Shown: positions 1,740 to 5,756 of the stretch, one piece after another
Numbering within the stretch: the first letter of the stretch is position 1
How the letters are laid out: every line of letters begins with the position of its first letter
The notes under the pieces: generated by a model
The model's database searches: none
Seen by the model: the letters and a program-made list of their open reading frames with translations, nothing else
Told to the model about the DNA's origin: nothing
Made by a program: the position numbers and the translations under genes
Origin: Chloroflexota bacterium
GTDB taxonomy: Bacteria > Chloroflexota > Anaerolineae > UBA3071
NCBI GenBank assembly: GCA_014383605.1
Contig: JACNHM010000219.1
Coordinates: 1 to 5,756, forward strand
Length of the DNA stretch: 5,756 bases
Reading direction: 5' to 3'

Positions 1740-2933
1740 ATGCCTACCTGCCGCTACTGTCGCGAAATCCATCACCACGACCCGTCCTATCCACGGCGCC
1801 GCGCCCGCCACAATCTGGAGGCCGACTATCCCCGCTGCCATCGCCATTGGCGCTACGTCTGCGACCTCTGCGGCCAGCCCTCTCACTTCAACGGCCTGAC
1901 CTGGTGCCCAGAGGCTGGCAAGTTCACCTGCCTGCACTGCGCCAGCGGCTATCGCCAGGTCAACGAGCCCTTCTGGGGGTGGGACTACTATTGGGACATC
2001 GCCTGCCCCCACTGCGAGGCCAGCCACCCGGCGTTGGATCGCCTGGAGTACGAGGGCCGTCATCCCTGGCAGGTGATGCCAGGGGCCGAGCGGCGACGCC
2101 TGGGCCTGAGCCAGGAAACCGACTTCCGGGGCGTCTTCTGGTCCGAGCACTTCCCCGGCGATGAGCGCCCGCCTAGCGACGAAGCCATCGCTGCCCAGTG
2201 GAATGTCATGGCCACGAACTGGGACGCCCGCTACGGTGAGGAAGGCGACACGTCGCGGGTGCATCTTCTCAACTCCGCGCTCCTGGGCATCCTGGGCGAC
2301 GTGGCGGGCAAGCGCATCCTGGACGCCGGCTGCGGCAACGGCTACCTATGTCGTATGTTGGCCCGGCGAGGGGCGGAGATGGTGGGAGTGGACCTGGCCC
2401 CCGGTTGGATCGAGATGGCTCGCAGCCGGGAGCCAGAGCTGGGCATTGAGTACCATGCTGGCAGCATCGCTCACATGCCCTTTCTGGCCGATGGCTCCTT
2501 TGAGGCGGTGGTCTCCGTCTGTGTCTTGATGGACGCCCGAGCCTACGGGGAGGCCCTGGGTGAGATGCATCGGGTGCTGGCGACTGGAGGCATCCTGGCC
2601 ATAGCCATCATGCACCCCTGCTTTGCCTCGCCGCCCGGCGGTAGGTGGGAGCGCCACCCCGTGGACAGCACCCGCCCGGAGGATCGCTGGCACTGGCGGG
2701 TGAGTAGCTATCTCCAGCGTACCTGGGAGACCTGGCATTGGGAGCCCGTGGGCACGGCTACCGGCTTCCATCGCCCACTGTCGGACTACATGCAGACGCT
2801 CCTGGGCCTGGGTTTCCGCCTGACGCATTTCATCGAGCCCGCCCCGTCGCCAGAGCTGGTTGCTGCTGATCCCGCCGACTGGGCCCCCTACGCCCGCATC
2901 CCGATCTTCCTGGTACTTGGAGCGATCAAATGA
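1740..2933 (+). CDS. Class I SAM-dependent methyltransferase with N-terminal cysteine-rich (zinc-ribbon-like) domain
   Basis: A 397-residue protein. Residues 1-110 carry four CxxC pairs (C4/C7, C41/C44, C64/C67, C89/C92) plus C33, C56 and several histidines, a pattern that suggests two structural zinc sites. I do not recognise this domain as a named family. Residues about 150-290 form a Rossmann methyltransferase: ILDAGCGNGYL at 193-203 is SAM motif I, D218 in GVDLA is the acidic residue expected to bind the SAM ribose, and DGSFEAVVSV at 251-260 is the following strand. The C-terminal part (MHPCF, FHRPLSDY, IEPAPSPEL) resembles small-molecule/UbiE-type methyltransferases. The start at 1740 is chosen for its GGAG and because the first CxxC follows at once; the frame stays open back to 1380, but only because it shadows the GC-rich dehydratase gene. 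Its TGA overlaps the ATG of the ABC gene. The substrate is unknown: the ribbons could bind nucleic acid or protein, or could be purely structural. Confidence 0.85.
   Translation: MPTCRYCREIHHHDPSYPRRRARHNLEADYPRCHRHWRYVCDLCGQPSHFNGLTWCPEAGKFTCLHCASGYRQVNEPFWGWDYYWDIACPHCEASHPALDRLEYEGRHPWQVMPGAERRRLGLSQETDFRGVFWSEHFPGDERPPSDEAIAAQWNVMATNWDARYGEEGDTSRVHLLNSALLGILGDVAGKRILDAGCGNGYLCRMLARRGAEMVGVDLAPGWIEMARSREPELGIEYHAGSIAHMPFLADGSFEAVVSVCVLMDARAYGEALGEMHRVLATGGILAIAIMHPCFASPPGGRWERHPVDSTRPEDRWHWRVSSYLQRTWETWHWEPVGTATGFHRPLSDYMQTLLGLGFRLTHFIEPAPSPELVAADPADWAPYARIPIFLVLGAIK
2919..2933 (+). promoter_or_regulatory. Translational coupling site: GGAG and ATGA overlap
   Basis: GGAG at 2919-2922, inside the methyltransferase coding sequence, lies 7 bases before the ATG at 2930. 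Start and stop overlap as ATGA (2930-2933). This arrangement usually means that ribosomes finishing the first gene restart on the second. Confidence 0.75.
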
Positions 2934-4684
2934 CCAAAAGAGAATTCAGGCTAGAAAACGAATACCACTACAATCGCTCCGGGCCGGTGCGCTGGATCGC
3001 CTCCCACGTCATGCGCTACCCGCTTTTCCCGCTGACCACCATCCTGGCGGCCATCCTGAACAACGGGTTCTACAGCTTCATCCAGATCTTTGTCGGCCGG
3101 GCGTTTGATCTGATCACCACCCCCGGCTGGCAGACGGCCTCGCTGCTGGCGCTGGCGGCGAGCGTGATGGGATCGGCCATCGGGCAGGGACTGACGGGAC
3201 TGGTGAGGAACTTCTCCACCGAGTTCGCAGCCCAAAGGGTCGAACGGGACGCCCGCGACGAGCTCTACGCCAGCCTGTTGGGCAAGAGCCAGACCTTTCA
3301 CGGCCGGCAGCGGATCGGCGACATCATGGCCCGCGCCACCAACGACGTGCGCATGCTCAACCTGATGTTCAGCCCCGGCCTGATGCTCATCGTTGATTCG
3401 CTGATGGCGATCGTCGTCCCCATTGTCATGATCGGACAGCTCCAATTCGAGCTGCTGCTCGTTCCCTCCATCTTCATCGTCCTGTTGGCCGTTACGGTGG
3501 CCGATTACAACCGACGGCTCAAGCCAGTGAGCATTGCCCGGCGAGATCAGTTTGGGACGATGAACGCAGGCTTGGCGGAGGCCATCGCCGGCATCGAAGT
3601 GGTCAAGGCCAACGTCCAGGAGCGGTACGAGTGGGACAAGTTCACCCAGAATGCCCGCCTGTTCCGCGACTATTTCGTGAAACAGGGGGAAATCCAGGCC
3701 CGCTACTGGCCGATGCTGATGTTCAGCCTGGCCTGGGCCGGCGGCTTCTTGCACGCCCTGCTGCTCTGGCGGGGCGGCGCCATCAGCCTGGGCGAGGTGG
3801 TCGCCTTCATGGGGCTGTTGGGCACGCTCCGCTTTCCCACCTTCATCTCCATCTTTTCTTTTGACCTGGTCCAACTGGGGATCGCCAGCAGCAGGCGGAT
3901 TCTGGATTTGATCAACACGGAAACAGAGCTGGACGAGAACCCGGCCGGCGTCGCCCAGCCGATTCGGGGAGAAGTGGTCTTCGAAAACGTCAGCTTTGGC
4001 TACGACGGGACGCCAGTGCTGAAAGACATCACCTTCGCCGCCCGGCCGGGCGAGACGATTGCCATCGTGGGGCAGACCGGTTCGGGCAAGACCACCTTCA
4101 CCCAGCTCATCAACCGCATCTTTGACGTGGACAGCGGGCGAGTGCTGATTGATGGCCTGGACGTGCGCGACTGGAGCCTGGAATCGCTGCGGTCGCAGAT
4201 CTCGACCATTGAGCAAGATGTGTTCCTCTTCTCCCGCACCTTGGCCGAGAACATCGCCTTTGGCTGCGCCGACGCCAGCCAGGAGGCCATCGAGCTGGCG
4301 GCCCACGAGGCTCAGGCCCACGAGTTTGTCGCCAGCTTCAGTGAGGGCTACGCCACCGAGATCGGCGAGCGCGGCGTGACCCTCTCTGGCGGGCAGCGGC
4401 AGCGCATCGCCATCGCCCGCGCCTTTCTCACCGACCCGCGCATCCTGATCCTGGACGACAGCACCAGCGCCATTGACAGCGCCACCGAAGACCAGATCCA
4501 GCGGGCCATGCGGCGCATCAGCCGCCAGCGGACCACCTTTCTCATCACCCACCGCCTCAGCCAGATCCGCTGGGCCGACCGCATCCTGGTGCTGCGCCGG
4601 GGCGAGCTGGTGGATCAGGGGACGCACGAGGAGTTGATGGGGCGGTGTGTGGACTATCGGCGGATTTTTGCTCGCTACGATTAG
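2930..4684 (+). CDS. ABC exporter half-transporter (membrane domain plus ATPase), degenerate-site subunit
   Basis: A 584-residue inner-membrane protein of normal length for a type IV (B-type) exporter half. The membrane domain spans about residues 25-325, with six likely helices near 32-56, 69-92, 148-168, 171-190, 259-280 and 287-306. The ATPase domain follows: A-loop Y358, Walker A GQTGSGKT 381-388, Q-loop Q429, x-loop TEIGERG, signature LSGGQ 485-489, Walker B ILILDD 505-510, D-loop SAID 513-516, H-loop H541. Position 510, normally the catalytic glutamate, is aspartate. In heterodimeric exporters of the TM287/288 and BmrCD type, this change marks the subunit whose own ATP site is slow or inactive, while its intact LSGGQ completes the active site built on the partner. 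The likely partner starts at 5197. The gene is coupled to the methyltransferase by ATGA. Substrate is not predictable: lipid, peptide and drug exporters all share this form. Confidence 0.95.
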   Translation: MTKREFRLENEYHYNRSGPVRWIASHVMRYPLFPLTTILAAILNNGFYSFIQIFVGRAFDLITTPGWQTASLLALAASVMGSAIGQGLTGLVRNFSTEFAAQRVERDARDELYASLLGKSQTFHGRQRIGDIMARATNDVRMLNLMFSPGLMLIVDSLMAIVVPIVMIGQLQFELLLVPSIFIVLLAVTVADYNRRLKPVSIARRDQFGTMNAGLAEAIAGIEVVKANVQERYEWDKFTQNARLFRDYFVKQGEIQARYWPMLMFSLAWAGGFLHALLLWRGGAISLGEVVAFMGLLGTLRFPTFISIFSFDLVQLGIASSRRILDLINTETELDENPAGVAQPIRGEVVFENVSFGYDGTPVLKDITFAARPGETIAIVGQTGSGKTTFTQLINRIFDVDSGRVLIDGLDVRDWSLESLRSQISTIEQDVFLFSRTLAENIAFGCADASQEAIELAAHEAQAHEFVASFSEGYATEIGERGVTLSGGQRQRIAIARAFLTDPRILILDDSTSAIDSATEDQIQRAMRRISRQRTTFLITHRLSQIRWADRILVLRRGELVDQGTHEELMGRCVDYRRIFARYD

Positions 4685-4685
4685 A

Positions 4686-4734
4686 GGTTGGAAGTTGGAA
4701 GTTGGAAATTGGAAATTGGAAGTTGGAGGTTGGA
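4686..4734 (+). repeat. Left heptamer array, seven tandem RRTTGGA units
   Basis: Seven uninterrupted 7-base units run in the order GGTTGGA, AGTTGGA, AGTTGGA, AATTGGA, AATTGGA, AGTTGGA, GGTTGGA. Only the first two bases vary, and always between purines. A weaker unit, GATTAGA at 4679-4685, overlaps the ABC stop codon. Seven is not a multiple of three, so the array reads as a 7-residue repeat every three units. It is not a CRISPR: there are no spacers. Confidence 0.95.
4725..4729 (+). promoter_or_regulatory. Ribosome binding site formed by the heptamer repeat
   Basis: GGAGG arises at the junction of the last two left-array units, because the final unit begins with GG. It lies 11 bases before the ATG at 4741, at the long end of normal spacing. 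It is the only perfect GGAGG in the left array. Confidence 0.6.
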
Positions 4735-4740
4735 TTGAGG

Positions 4741-5106
4741 ATGGCAATCAGAAGCTATCGCGACATTGAGGCCTATCAGCGCGCCAAAGCGTTGGTGGTC
4801 CCTATGCATAAACTGGTCAAACGCTTTCCGGCCTACGAGCAATTTGATCTGTGTGATCAGATCAGACGTGCGAGCAAGTCGGTGGTGTCTAACATGGTGG
4901 AAGGATACAGCCACAAAGATACCCCTGCCAAAACCAAGCACTTCTGGCGCATCTCAATGGGGTCGGCCAACGAGATGATTGAGCACCTGGAAACAGCCGT
5001 TGCCTTGGAGTACGCTTCCCAAGACATCTACCAGCCTTACATCGAGCAGTATACCGTTGTGGCCAAACAGCTCAACAAGCTGATCCAGACCTGGCGCAAA
5101 TTTTAG
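4741..5106 (+). CDS. Four-helix-bundle protein (S23 / 23S rRNA intervening-sequence protein family)
   Basis: A 121-residue protein, normal size for the family. It begins with the typical YRDIEAYQRAKAL helix. The family core follows: FDLCDQIRRASKSVVSNMVEG at residues 35-55, close to the usual QIRRAavSi.sNIaEG pattern, then FWRISMGSANEMIEHLETAVAL at 68-89, and a last helix ending LNKLIQTWRKF. Family members were first noted in ORFs inside 23S rRNA intervening sequences, and relatives such as the Avd accessory protein of diversity-generating retroelements form pentameric barrels that bind nucleic acid. The general role is unknown. Here it is not in an rRNA gene but between two ABC genes, bounded by heptamer arrays. 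I chose ATG 4741 because homology begins there; an in-frame ATG at 4645 would only add ABC-gene and repeat sequence. Lower G+C than its neighbours suggests separate origin. Confidence 0.9.
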   Translation: MAIRSYRDIEAYQRAKALVVPMHKLVKRFPAYEQFDLCDQIRRASKSVVSNMVEGYSHKDTPAKTKHFWRISMGSANEMIEHLETAVALEYASQDIYQPYIEQYTVVAKQLNKLIQTWRKF

Positions 5107-5154
5107 ATTGGAGGTTGGAGGTTGGAAATTGGAGGTTAGAGGTTGGAAGTTGGA
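5106..5154 (+). repeat. Right heptamer array, forward units
   Basis: Seven 7-base units follow the small gene's stop codon directly: GATTGGA, GGTTGGA, GGTTGGA, AATTGGA, GGTTAGA, GGTTGGA, AGTTGGA. They have the same form and orientation as the left array, with one internal change (GGTTAGA). The total of seven units and 49 bases equals the left array. Confidence 0.93.
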
Positions 5155-5188
5155 CATCCAACTTCCAACCTCCAACTTCCAACTTCCA
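5120..5188 (+). other. Long imperfect hairpin between the four-helix-bundle gene and the second ABC gene
   Basis: The centre is at 5155-5156. The 14 bases 5141-5154 pair perfectly with 5157-5170; the two central bases leave no room for a loop, so the innermost pairs must open. The stem continues outward through 5123-5140 with 5171-5188, with two mismatches (5138/5173 and 5128/5183) and one G-U pair (5134/5177). No run of T follows, so it is not a standard intrinsic terminator. It could slow polymerase, protect an RNA end, or be a folded recognition end of a mobile unit. Confidence 0.7.
5157..5188 (-). repeat. Right heptamer array, inverted units
   Basis: After the two bases CA the same heptamer appears in reverse: TCCAACT, TCCAACC, TCCAACT, TCCAACT and a partial TCCA. 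Inverted copies occur only on this side of the cassette. They can pair with the adjacent forward units or with the left array. Confidence 0.93.
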
Positions 5189-5196
5189 GAAAGACC

Positions 5197-5756
5197 ATGG
5201 GCTTTATCTTGGACGGCCTTGAAACAGAAGCATACGACCGCGAATACAGCGACCGGGAGCTGCTGAGCCGCATCATCAGCTATTTTCGGCCGCACAGCCG
5301 GCAGATGATCCTGGTGGCCGCGATGATCACGCTGAACTCAGCGGCAGGGACGGGCAGCCCTATCCTCATCTCCAGAGCCATTGACATGGTGGCGGAAAAC
5401 CCATCGGTCGAGGCCATGCTGCTCCTGGCGGGAGGTGTGCTTTTGCTGGGCGTAACCGCCTGGATATTCAACTACATCCGGCAACTGTTCTCCGCGCGGG
5501 TGGTGGGGGACGTGGTGCTCCAGTTGCGGGAGGATGTCTTCGATGCCACCGTCGGACACGATCTCTCCTTTTTCGACGAGCACCCTTCTGGCAAGATCGT
5601 CAGCCGGGTCACGTCGGACACGCAGGACTTTTCCGCAACCATCACCCTGGTCATGGACCTGCTCAGCCAGGTGTTGCTGGTCGCCATCCTCTCCGTCTGG
5701 CTGTTCAAGATCAACGTCTTGTTAGCATTGTTGATGCTGGGAATGGCGCCGGTTGC
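5197..5756 (+). CDS. ABC exporter half-transporter, N-terminal part of membrane domain, 3'-truncated
   Basis: The frame is open from the ATG at 5197 to the right edge (186 codons). The first 35 residues are a polar cytoplasmic lead-in with an elbow-helix pattern (MGFILDGLETEAYDREYSD, then LLSRIISYFRPH). Hydrophobic helices follow near 37-58, 72-95, 150-170 and from 172. SFFDEHPSGKIVSRVTSDTQDF at 124-145 is the first intracellular coupling region, typical of B-type exporters. The ATPase domain is beyond the window. Position and type suggest it is the partner of the ABC half at 2930-4684. If so it should carry the catalytic Walker B glutamate, and perhaps an altered signature motif. No good Shine-Dalgarno precedes the ATG: only AGAAAGA is there, right after the inverted repeats, so translation may be weak or start differently. 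Confidence 0.9.
   Translation, partial: MGFILDGLETEAYDREYSDRELLSRIISYFRPHSRQMILVAAMITLNSAAGTGSPILISRAIDMVAENPSVEAMLLLAGGVLLLGVTAWIFNYIRQLFSARVVGDVVLQLREDVFDATVGHDLSFFDEHPSGKIVSRVTSDTQDFSATITLVMDLLSQVLLVAILSVWLFKINVLLALLMLGMAPV

Follow-up and report, generated by a model that had tools for sequence, protein, structure and literature searches.

The question raised by this locus is why a small gene lined by short repeats lies between two ABC exporter half genes, and whether it is a mobile insert. In the window, i.e., the whole 5,756-nucleotide stretch analysed, the upstream half gene (ABC1; 2930–4684, forward strand) was recognised by the Pfam domains ABC_membrane and ABC_tran, and the downstream half gene (ABC2; 5197–5756, forward strand), which is cut by the window end, by ABC_membrane. 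Counting of repeat units revealed the following order between them: direct array, four-helix-bundle (4HB) gene, direct array, CA, inverted array. The left array (4679–4734, forward strand) consists of GATTAGA and seven exact RRTTGGA units. The exact units occupy positions 4686–4734, and GATTAGA (4679–4685), which precedes them in register, is ABC1's own 3' end; the array begins one base past the ABC1 stop codon. The 4HB gene (4741–5106, forward strand) encodes a protein of 121 amino acids, and its open frame spans 4645–5106, i.e., it runs through the left array. The right direct array (5106–5154, forward strand) contains four exact units, GGTTAGA and two further exact units, and the G that closes the TAG stop codon of the 4HB gene also belongs to the first unit. 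After the CA spacer, the inverted array (5157–5188, reverse strand) has four exact units at 5157–5184 plus TCCA. The first-pass annotation had described repeats close to the flanking stop codons, seven RRTTGGA units on each side and inverted units on the right; the positions and the inverted units were confirmed, as was the left-hand count, and the right-hand count came to six exact units and one near unit. RRTTGGA matched exactly 20 times in the window, compared with 2.65 ± 1.62 matches in 200 shuffles (largest 7), and its longest in-phase run was seven units in the window versus one in 200 shuffles. The G+C content of the 4HB gene (51.6%) was, as had been claimed, lower than that of ABC1 (63.1%) and the ABC2 part (59.1%).

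In the predicted fold the inverted array pairs with the direct arrays. The z-score was −7.15 for positions 5100–5196 and −3.74 for 4676–5196, where the arrays pair around the 4HB open reading frame (ORF). Rfam offered only miRNA models for this hairpin, all under their gathering scores, and these were taken as chance matches. The 4HB protein of the window matched Pfam PF05635 (E 1.1e-25) and TIGR02436 (E 8.3e-26), and the profile match of 90.3 bits, against curated cut-offs of 33.8 and 24, places it in this family. PF05635 was the only Pfam match, and no catalytic domain was found in the protein by this search, a point that was counted against its being part of a mobile element. Its structural model (pLDDT 95) has four helices and matches 2gsc (TM 0.84–0.89) and 2rld, each of which lists five chains; we presume that these relatives form pentameric rings. 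The model also resembles the phage Avd protein 4dwl (Foldseek probability 0.99, TM 0.61). To our knowledge, PF05635 proteins have no settled function outside rRNA.

The first-pass annotation had assumed that the two ABC genes normally sit back to back, and the relatives bear this out. Among 80 loci with an ABC1 relative, kept from one scan and mostly derived from metagenome-assembled drafts, the distance from ABC1 to the start of ABC2 was at most 130 bp in 51 and larger in 12, and no ABC2 was seen in 17, a number that includes contig ends; the closest ABC1 relatives were Chloroflexota metagenome-assembled genomes. When these 80 loci were searched with all the 4HB proteins collected, a 4HB gene was found behind ABC1 in three, L002, L023 and L039. 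Only L002 carries the 4HB lineage of the window, in a frame that is broken, perhaps by assembly. L023 and L039 carry a different lineage (53% and 59% identity to L096); their ABC1 scores are identical, so they may represent one organism. The closest ABC1 relative, L001 (88%), has no 4HB gene, and a direct plus inverted RRTTGGA array lies directly behind its ABC1 stop codon, with a predicted hairpin of z −8.65. The proposed comparison of the ABC pair with and without the insert yielded both states, L002 having the gene, L001 the arrays without it, and most loci lacking a 4HB gene. Among the first 30 of the 80 loci (L001–L030), the junctions of those with a full ABC1 end were also inspected by eye. 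Mirror-image arrays of other units occur there in L003, L005, L017 and L018, the palindromes of L017 and L018 having fold z-scores of −5.6 and −3.3, and L030 has a few RRTTGGA-like units. Since the arrays and 4HB lineages at this spot differ among relatives, the site behind the ABC1 stop codon has received several different elements, and the ABC1–ABC2 junction seems open to inserts. No clear target-site duplication was seen by eye at the junction in the relatives inspected, and this was counted against mobility. Longer unrelated genes, as judged by eye, lie between ABC1 and ABC2 in L008 (acetyltransferase-like) and in L032, L061 and L072 (MFS-like). Closely similar ABC1 genes were also present in L016, L019, L044, L045, L052 and L076, titled Spirochaetes or Aminicenantes, which reflects either gene transfer or binning errors.

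The array architecture is widespread among 4HB genes in this class. Five related genomes had 11, 11, 7, 3 and 1 PF05635 matches, and 40 of 60 genomes of the class had a match at E ≤ 1e-10. The class set, which covers part of the matches listed in the 60-genome search, comprised 114 4HB loci: 27 from the five related genomes, 27 from the 60-genome search, 59 of 60 loci retrieved in addition, and the window. The flanks of 108 were long enough for analysis. The weak or broken loci L102 and L105 were not included, L109 and L110 were treated as one, and L227 duplicates L165. A tandem array lay within 250 bp of 88 of the 108 genes, compared with 33 of 613 control windows. Arrays were present on the left in 67, on the right in 66 and on both sides in 45 cases, with periods of 7 (89 arrays), 8 (51), 9 (4), 6 (1) and 5 (0), i.e., 7 or 8 in 140 of 145. 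The flanks were mirror images, above the 99th percentile of between-genome pairings, in 77 of 108 genes and in 2 of 96 distant flanks; for 63 genes, their own right flank was the single best mirror match of all 108. Direct-orientation similarity reached the same level in 28 of 108. Left and right periods agreed in 63 of 66 cases (all sets), and the two units were mirror images with at most one mismatch in 40 of 63 (mean 1.3 and largest 6 in 200 shuffles). On the coding strand, 87 of 104 left arrays were G-rich and 77 of 99 right arrays were C-rich. The genes are lower in G+C than their flanks in 108 of 114 loci (median difference −7.3 points). The genes for which the detector found no array (20/108) and those without strong mirror flanks (31/108) were both counted against the view that the insert is a mobile element.

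The mirror layout is specific to the 4HB genes. It was seen in 76 of 107 of them versus 3 of 534 other ORFs at the ABC loci and 2 of 62 at the 4HB loci, and in a sample of 135 ORFs from genome G005 four had mirror arrays, one being the 4HB gene itself. A weaker control based on intergenic gaps at the same loci, for which ORFs were called crudely, gave arrays in 31 of 43 gaps beside the 4HB gene versus 36 of 95 other gaps; the ORF-level comparison is the better one, but the frequency of arrays in the other gaps was counted against mobility. That the particular unit RRTTGGA marks 4HB genes in general was rejected, since another 7- or 8-mer is found in most lineages.

Instead of a common unit, each protein lineage has its own. 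We analysed 6492 different-site pairs, scoring flank arrays as similar at a score of at least 18; pairs below 35% identity were sampled 1 in 5, at least 50 aligned residues were required, and 32 same-site pairs and L220 and L226 (duplicates of L308 and L307) were left out. Similar arrays were found in 0–1% of pairs below 45% 4HB protein identity, about 2% at 45–55%, 8% at 55–60%, 26% at 60–70%, 36% at 70–80% and 89% at 80% or above (n = 18), and in the wrong orientation in at most 17% of pairs. Period agreement rose likewise from 57–65% (below 60% identity) to 78% (60–70%), 92% (70–80%, n = 37) and 100% (above, n = 9). That unit similarity is kept in only 26–36% of pairs at 60–80% identity was counted against mobility. 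Determination of the unit by the insertion site was rejected: the same-site pairs L305/L306, L237/L239 and L093/L230 (about 40% identity) had no array similarity, whereas a single lineage retains one unit across different junctions. The window protein had relatives at E ≤ 1e-30 in 7 of 396 class genomes, one of them being the L002 copy; the six others (61–75% identity) lie at five junctions with RRTTGGA-type left arrays and mirror right arrays. Of the earlier suggestion of mobility, the part that stands is that the cassette acts like an insert, with the same 4HB lineage in 1 of 80 ABC1 relatives and at five other junctions; movement itself is deduced. Turnover was also evident at the argS–dcd junction, where G251 and G060 carry the element, G025 retains a truncated remnant, and G293 lacks the element and has a different short array. 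Near-identical copies within genomes were few (5 of 146 pairs at ≥80% identity), so that there was no recent burst, another point counted against mobility.

The arrays are also dispersed in the genomes. Three consecutive units were sought in 46 genomes, overlapping pattern hits being counted. Each of the seven carriers of the window lineage had 15–129 RRTTGGA hits, versus any hits in 9 of 39 other genomes (p 2e-4); GCAAATCR gave 38 and 47 hits in the two genomes whose 4HB gene has this unit and eight hits in 3 of 44 others (p 0.0097). TGCGTRB was less selective (20 of 46 genomes) and adjoins a 4HB match outside the set at G061:C111 and G060:C180. The nine non-carriers with RRTTGGA arrays include G001, where arrays are left at the ABC site, and G025, which has the argS remnant. 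The high counts in non-carriers were set against mobility (G062, 188 hits; G001, 75; G022, 53; G043, 44); G062, which is not among the seven genomes with a window-4HB relative at E ≤ 1e-30, has the most hits of all 46. In 40 sampled solo arrays, 20 of RRTTGGA (G251) and 20 of GCAAATCR (G001, G003), no 4HB match was present in the fetched flank (up to about 600 bp), and only eight had an inverted partner within 350 bp, which likewise counts against mobility. The first-pass annotation had named arrays spread through the genome with no link to the gene family as a refuting case; they are indeed spread and lie mostly away from 4HB genes, but they track the cognate lineage.

The left arrays tend to lie right behind stop codons. 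With the upstream frame defined as co-directional, open from stop to stop and at least 80 codons long, the left array began within 20 bp of an upstream stop codon in 71 of 104 4HB loci versus 130 of 1387 random positions. TAG accounted for 32 of 90 upstream stops beside left arrays versus 80 of 455, an excess that perhaps arises because the array can supply TAG. The arrays are often crossed by open frames of 4HB genes, and some predicted relatives of the window protein (P0076, P0086 and P0118) contain translated array repeat at an end. The 4HB protein is under purifying selection, the median dN/dS being 0.064 in 30 pairs of at least 70% identity and 0.089 in the 19 pairs with dS < 2.

The same layout was detected in other phyla and on cyanobacterial plasmids. 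A PF05635 match at E ≤ 1e-15 was present in 48 of 79 genomes in the phylum of G066 (locus L039, titled Opitutia) and in 10 of 80 genomes in the phylum to which G068 belongs (locus L076, titled Spirochaetales). In the former, 29 loci were used (30 chosen from a longer list, one with a short flank), with mirror flanks in 19 and arrays in 19, compared with 9 of 172 control windows. In the latter, 15 loci were used (13 plus L248–L250, one with a short flank, L251 left out), with mirror flanks in 8 and arrays in 9, compared with 4 of 85 control windows. The 12 plasmid loci, taken from 32 plasmid records, had mirror flanks in 7 and arrays in 10 (control windows 1/72). For example, pNe_5 of Nostoc edaphicum has an AGTAGGG array, a 4HB gene and a mirror array. 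In pANA02 of Anabaena sp. 90 the 4HB gene lies between cas6 and cas4, and the cas6–cas4 junction of Nostoc UHCC 0302 is without insert. At the same junction, Pseudanabaena galeata has a 4HB gene with another unit and arrays that run mostly in one direction; such departures from the mirror layout, seen in several elements, were counted against mobility. The Dolichospermum UHCC 0315A sequence is 98.7% identical over the 62% matched and has no annotated 4HB gene. It was rejected as a clean empty site, since another palindrome sits there: at L357 1117–1343 (Dolichospermum sp. UHCC 0315A plasmid) a palindromic insert with GTAGGTTGGGTT-type ends occupies the site of the 4HB element of Anabaena sp. 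90. In plasmid pANA02 of Anabaena sp. 90 (L296 1914–1980) the right array falls within the 5' end annotated for cas4, and its units seem to be translated.

Taken with the presence and absence of the element at ABC1–ABC2, argS–dcd and cas6–cas4, which support mobility, these data make it fairly probable in our view that the insert is a minimal mobile element, consisting of a single PF05635 4HB gene with arrays of 7–8 bp units on either side. From genome comparison we infer that the 4HB protein recognises its own repeat and that the element moves. In the usual element, a G-rich array precedes the 4HB gene and its mirror image follows. Like its relatives, the 4HB protein is probably a pentameric ring; it may bind single-stranded DNA or RNA that carries its own unit, with about one repeat unit per subunit, and such binding would bring the two arrays together. 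An enzyme of the host (of replication, of recombination, or a transposase acting in trans) could then copy or move the element and the solo arrays, in a manner comparable to that of the RAYT transposase with its REP/REPIN repeats. If the two direct arrays recombined with each other, the 4HB gene would be lost and a direct plus inverted array would remain, as in L001. Solo arrays may thus be partly scars of lost elements and partly copies made in trans.

Other explanations have to be weighed against this one. The 4HB protein could be a regulator that binds the repeat in either nucleic acid (RNA or DNA) and adjusts both its own gene and the neighbours of solo arrays, the cassettes spreading as regulatory units and not as selfish DNA. 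Purifying selection on the protein, the strand polarity of the arrays (G-rich ahead of the gene), the placement of cassettes inside operons and the strong hairpins of the window (4676–5196) and of L001 would all fit, and a network of this kind has been proposed for TAACTGA repeats (PMC4679880). However, it would be odd for a regulon that the element comes and goes at one junction among close relatives and that different 4HB lineages use this junction in turn, and we regard the explanation as unlikely, if a serious one. It is rather improbable, too, that arrays spread by slippage or recombination and that functionally unrelated 4HB genes land among them and move passively between like arrays by homologous recombination. 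Moves of this sort would likewise preserve the link between unit and lineage, arrays without a 4HB gene nearby are common, and some genomes are rich in RRTTGGA arrays without having a gene of the window lineage; yet mirror arrays around other ORFs are rare in all three samples above (3/534, 2/62, and 4/135 including the 4HB gene), and the association with one gene family recurs across phyla.

An intervening element acting at the RNA level, like the intervening sequence (IVS) of 23S rRNA, would have its arrays pair in the transcript, with RNase III then excising the 4HB segment from the operon mRNA. The window arrays do pair in the predicted fold, and the IVS, which carries the same protein family, is described in PMC4990558 as having a 28-bp terminal stem and being cut by RNase III. 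But the window element lies outside rRNA, and the tandem 7–8 bp periodicity and locus-specific units exceed what a stem needs; we consider this quite improbable. That the pattern arises from chance or assembly is practically negligible. Most source genomes are indeed metagenome-assembled drafts, but the pattern is also found on plasmids recorded complete (pNe_5 and pANA02), and for the architecture the control windows, distant flanks and other ORFs are taken to refute this explanation.

The proposed mobile element can be compared with several known systems. The 23S rRNA IVS also places a PF05635 ORF between complementary ends, as in the predicted fold of the window, and the IVS with its 4HB/S23p ORF is regarded as selfish (PMC4990558); by contrast, the window element is inserted between ABC1 and ABC2 and not in a 23S rRNA gene, and the ends of 4HB elements are tandem arrays of 7–8 bp whose unit varies by lineage. 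A 23S rRNA IVP is also named in a figure legend on CRISPR associations (PMC10910872). The window 4HB fold resembles 4dwl, an Avd protein as found in diversity-generating retroelements (DGRs), and a resemblance of Avd to PF05635 is mentioned in PMC10053308, but Pfam found no reverse transcriptase (RT) domain in the six window frames tested. Solo direct plus inverted arrays (L001, L017, L018) are short palindromic inserts like MITEs, from which they differ in that only 8 of 40 solo arrays had an inverted partner; by eye, the ABC1 junction showed no clear target-site duplication. REP/REPIN systems combine one RAYT transposase gene, mirror repeats beside it and many dispersed repeat copies. Dispersed copies of the flanking repeat likewise occur in 7 of 7 genomes carrying the window lineage; however, the 4HB protein has no Y1 transposase domain (only PF05635 matched), and its repeat is an array of short units, whereas REP is a single palindrome.

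Intergenic 7-mer arrays at many places in the relatives' genomes also recall the known heptamer satellites: STRR of cyanobacteria, GGGAATC of Xanthomonas, where convergent heptamer pairs occur (PMC4692102), TAACTGA of Beggiatoaceae, for which a repeat-binding protein has been suggested as the mobile entity (PMC4679880), and the GATAGRA heptamer family of Chloroflexus aurantiacus (PMC6749651). In the available text of these three papers no agent of the arrays is named for cyanobacteria, Xanthomonas, Beggiatoaceae or Chloroflexus, nor is any 4HB gene, whereas here the units are tied to 4HB lineages. Among the papers listed by searches of the open-licence PMC literature, none was seen to connect PF05635 genes with heptamer arrays. 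If such a connection holds, genes and arrays would each gain a role that can be tested. The 4HB elements suggest a type of mobile DNA that has drawn little notice, and they may be a source of bacterial satellite repeats that lack an explanation. If the 4HB protein reads its own unit, a small protein family would provide binders of nucleic acid with many naturally occurring sequence specificities, as well as a type of mobile element without a catalytic gene of its own. A ring protein that reads RNA repeats is known in TRAP, which serves here as an analogy and not as a relative. On this basis we tentatively put forward a broader proposal, which we hold to be possible but more doubtful than the mobility of the insert: PF05635 proteins might be repeat-reading rings, each lineage recognising its own 7- or 8-base unit, one per subunit on a single strand, and might drive the birth and spread of arrays of that unit. 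They could then be the cause of the STRR, GGGAATC, TAACTGA and GATAGRA satellites and the first mobile elements with cognate-microsatellite ends, the rRNA IVS and the DGR Avd being offshoots.

RT was also considered as a possible partner of the 4HB gene. RT genes were found in 19 of 40 4HB-positive versus 2 of 20 4HB-negative genomes (p 0.004), a difference confounded by gene-rich drafts, and 21 carriers had none. Weak 4HB-like matches stand beside RT genes, similarly to DGR Avd, at G003:C122 (match 29530–29823, L105; RT 30048–30695) and at G001:C309 (match 2847–3146; RT 1969–2616).
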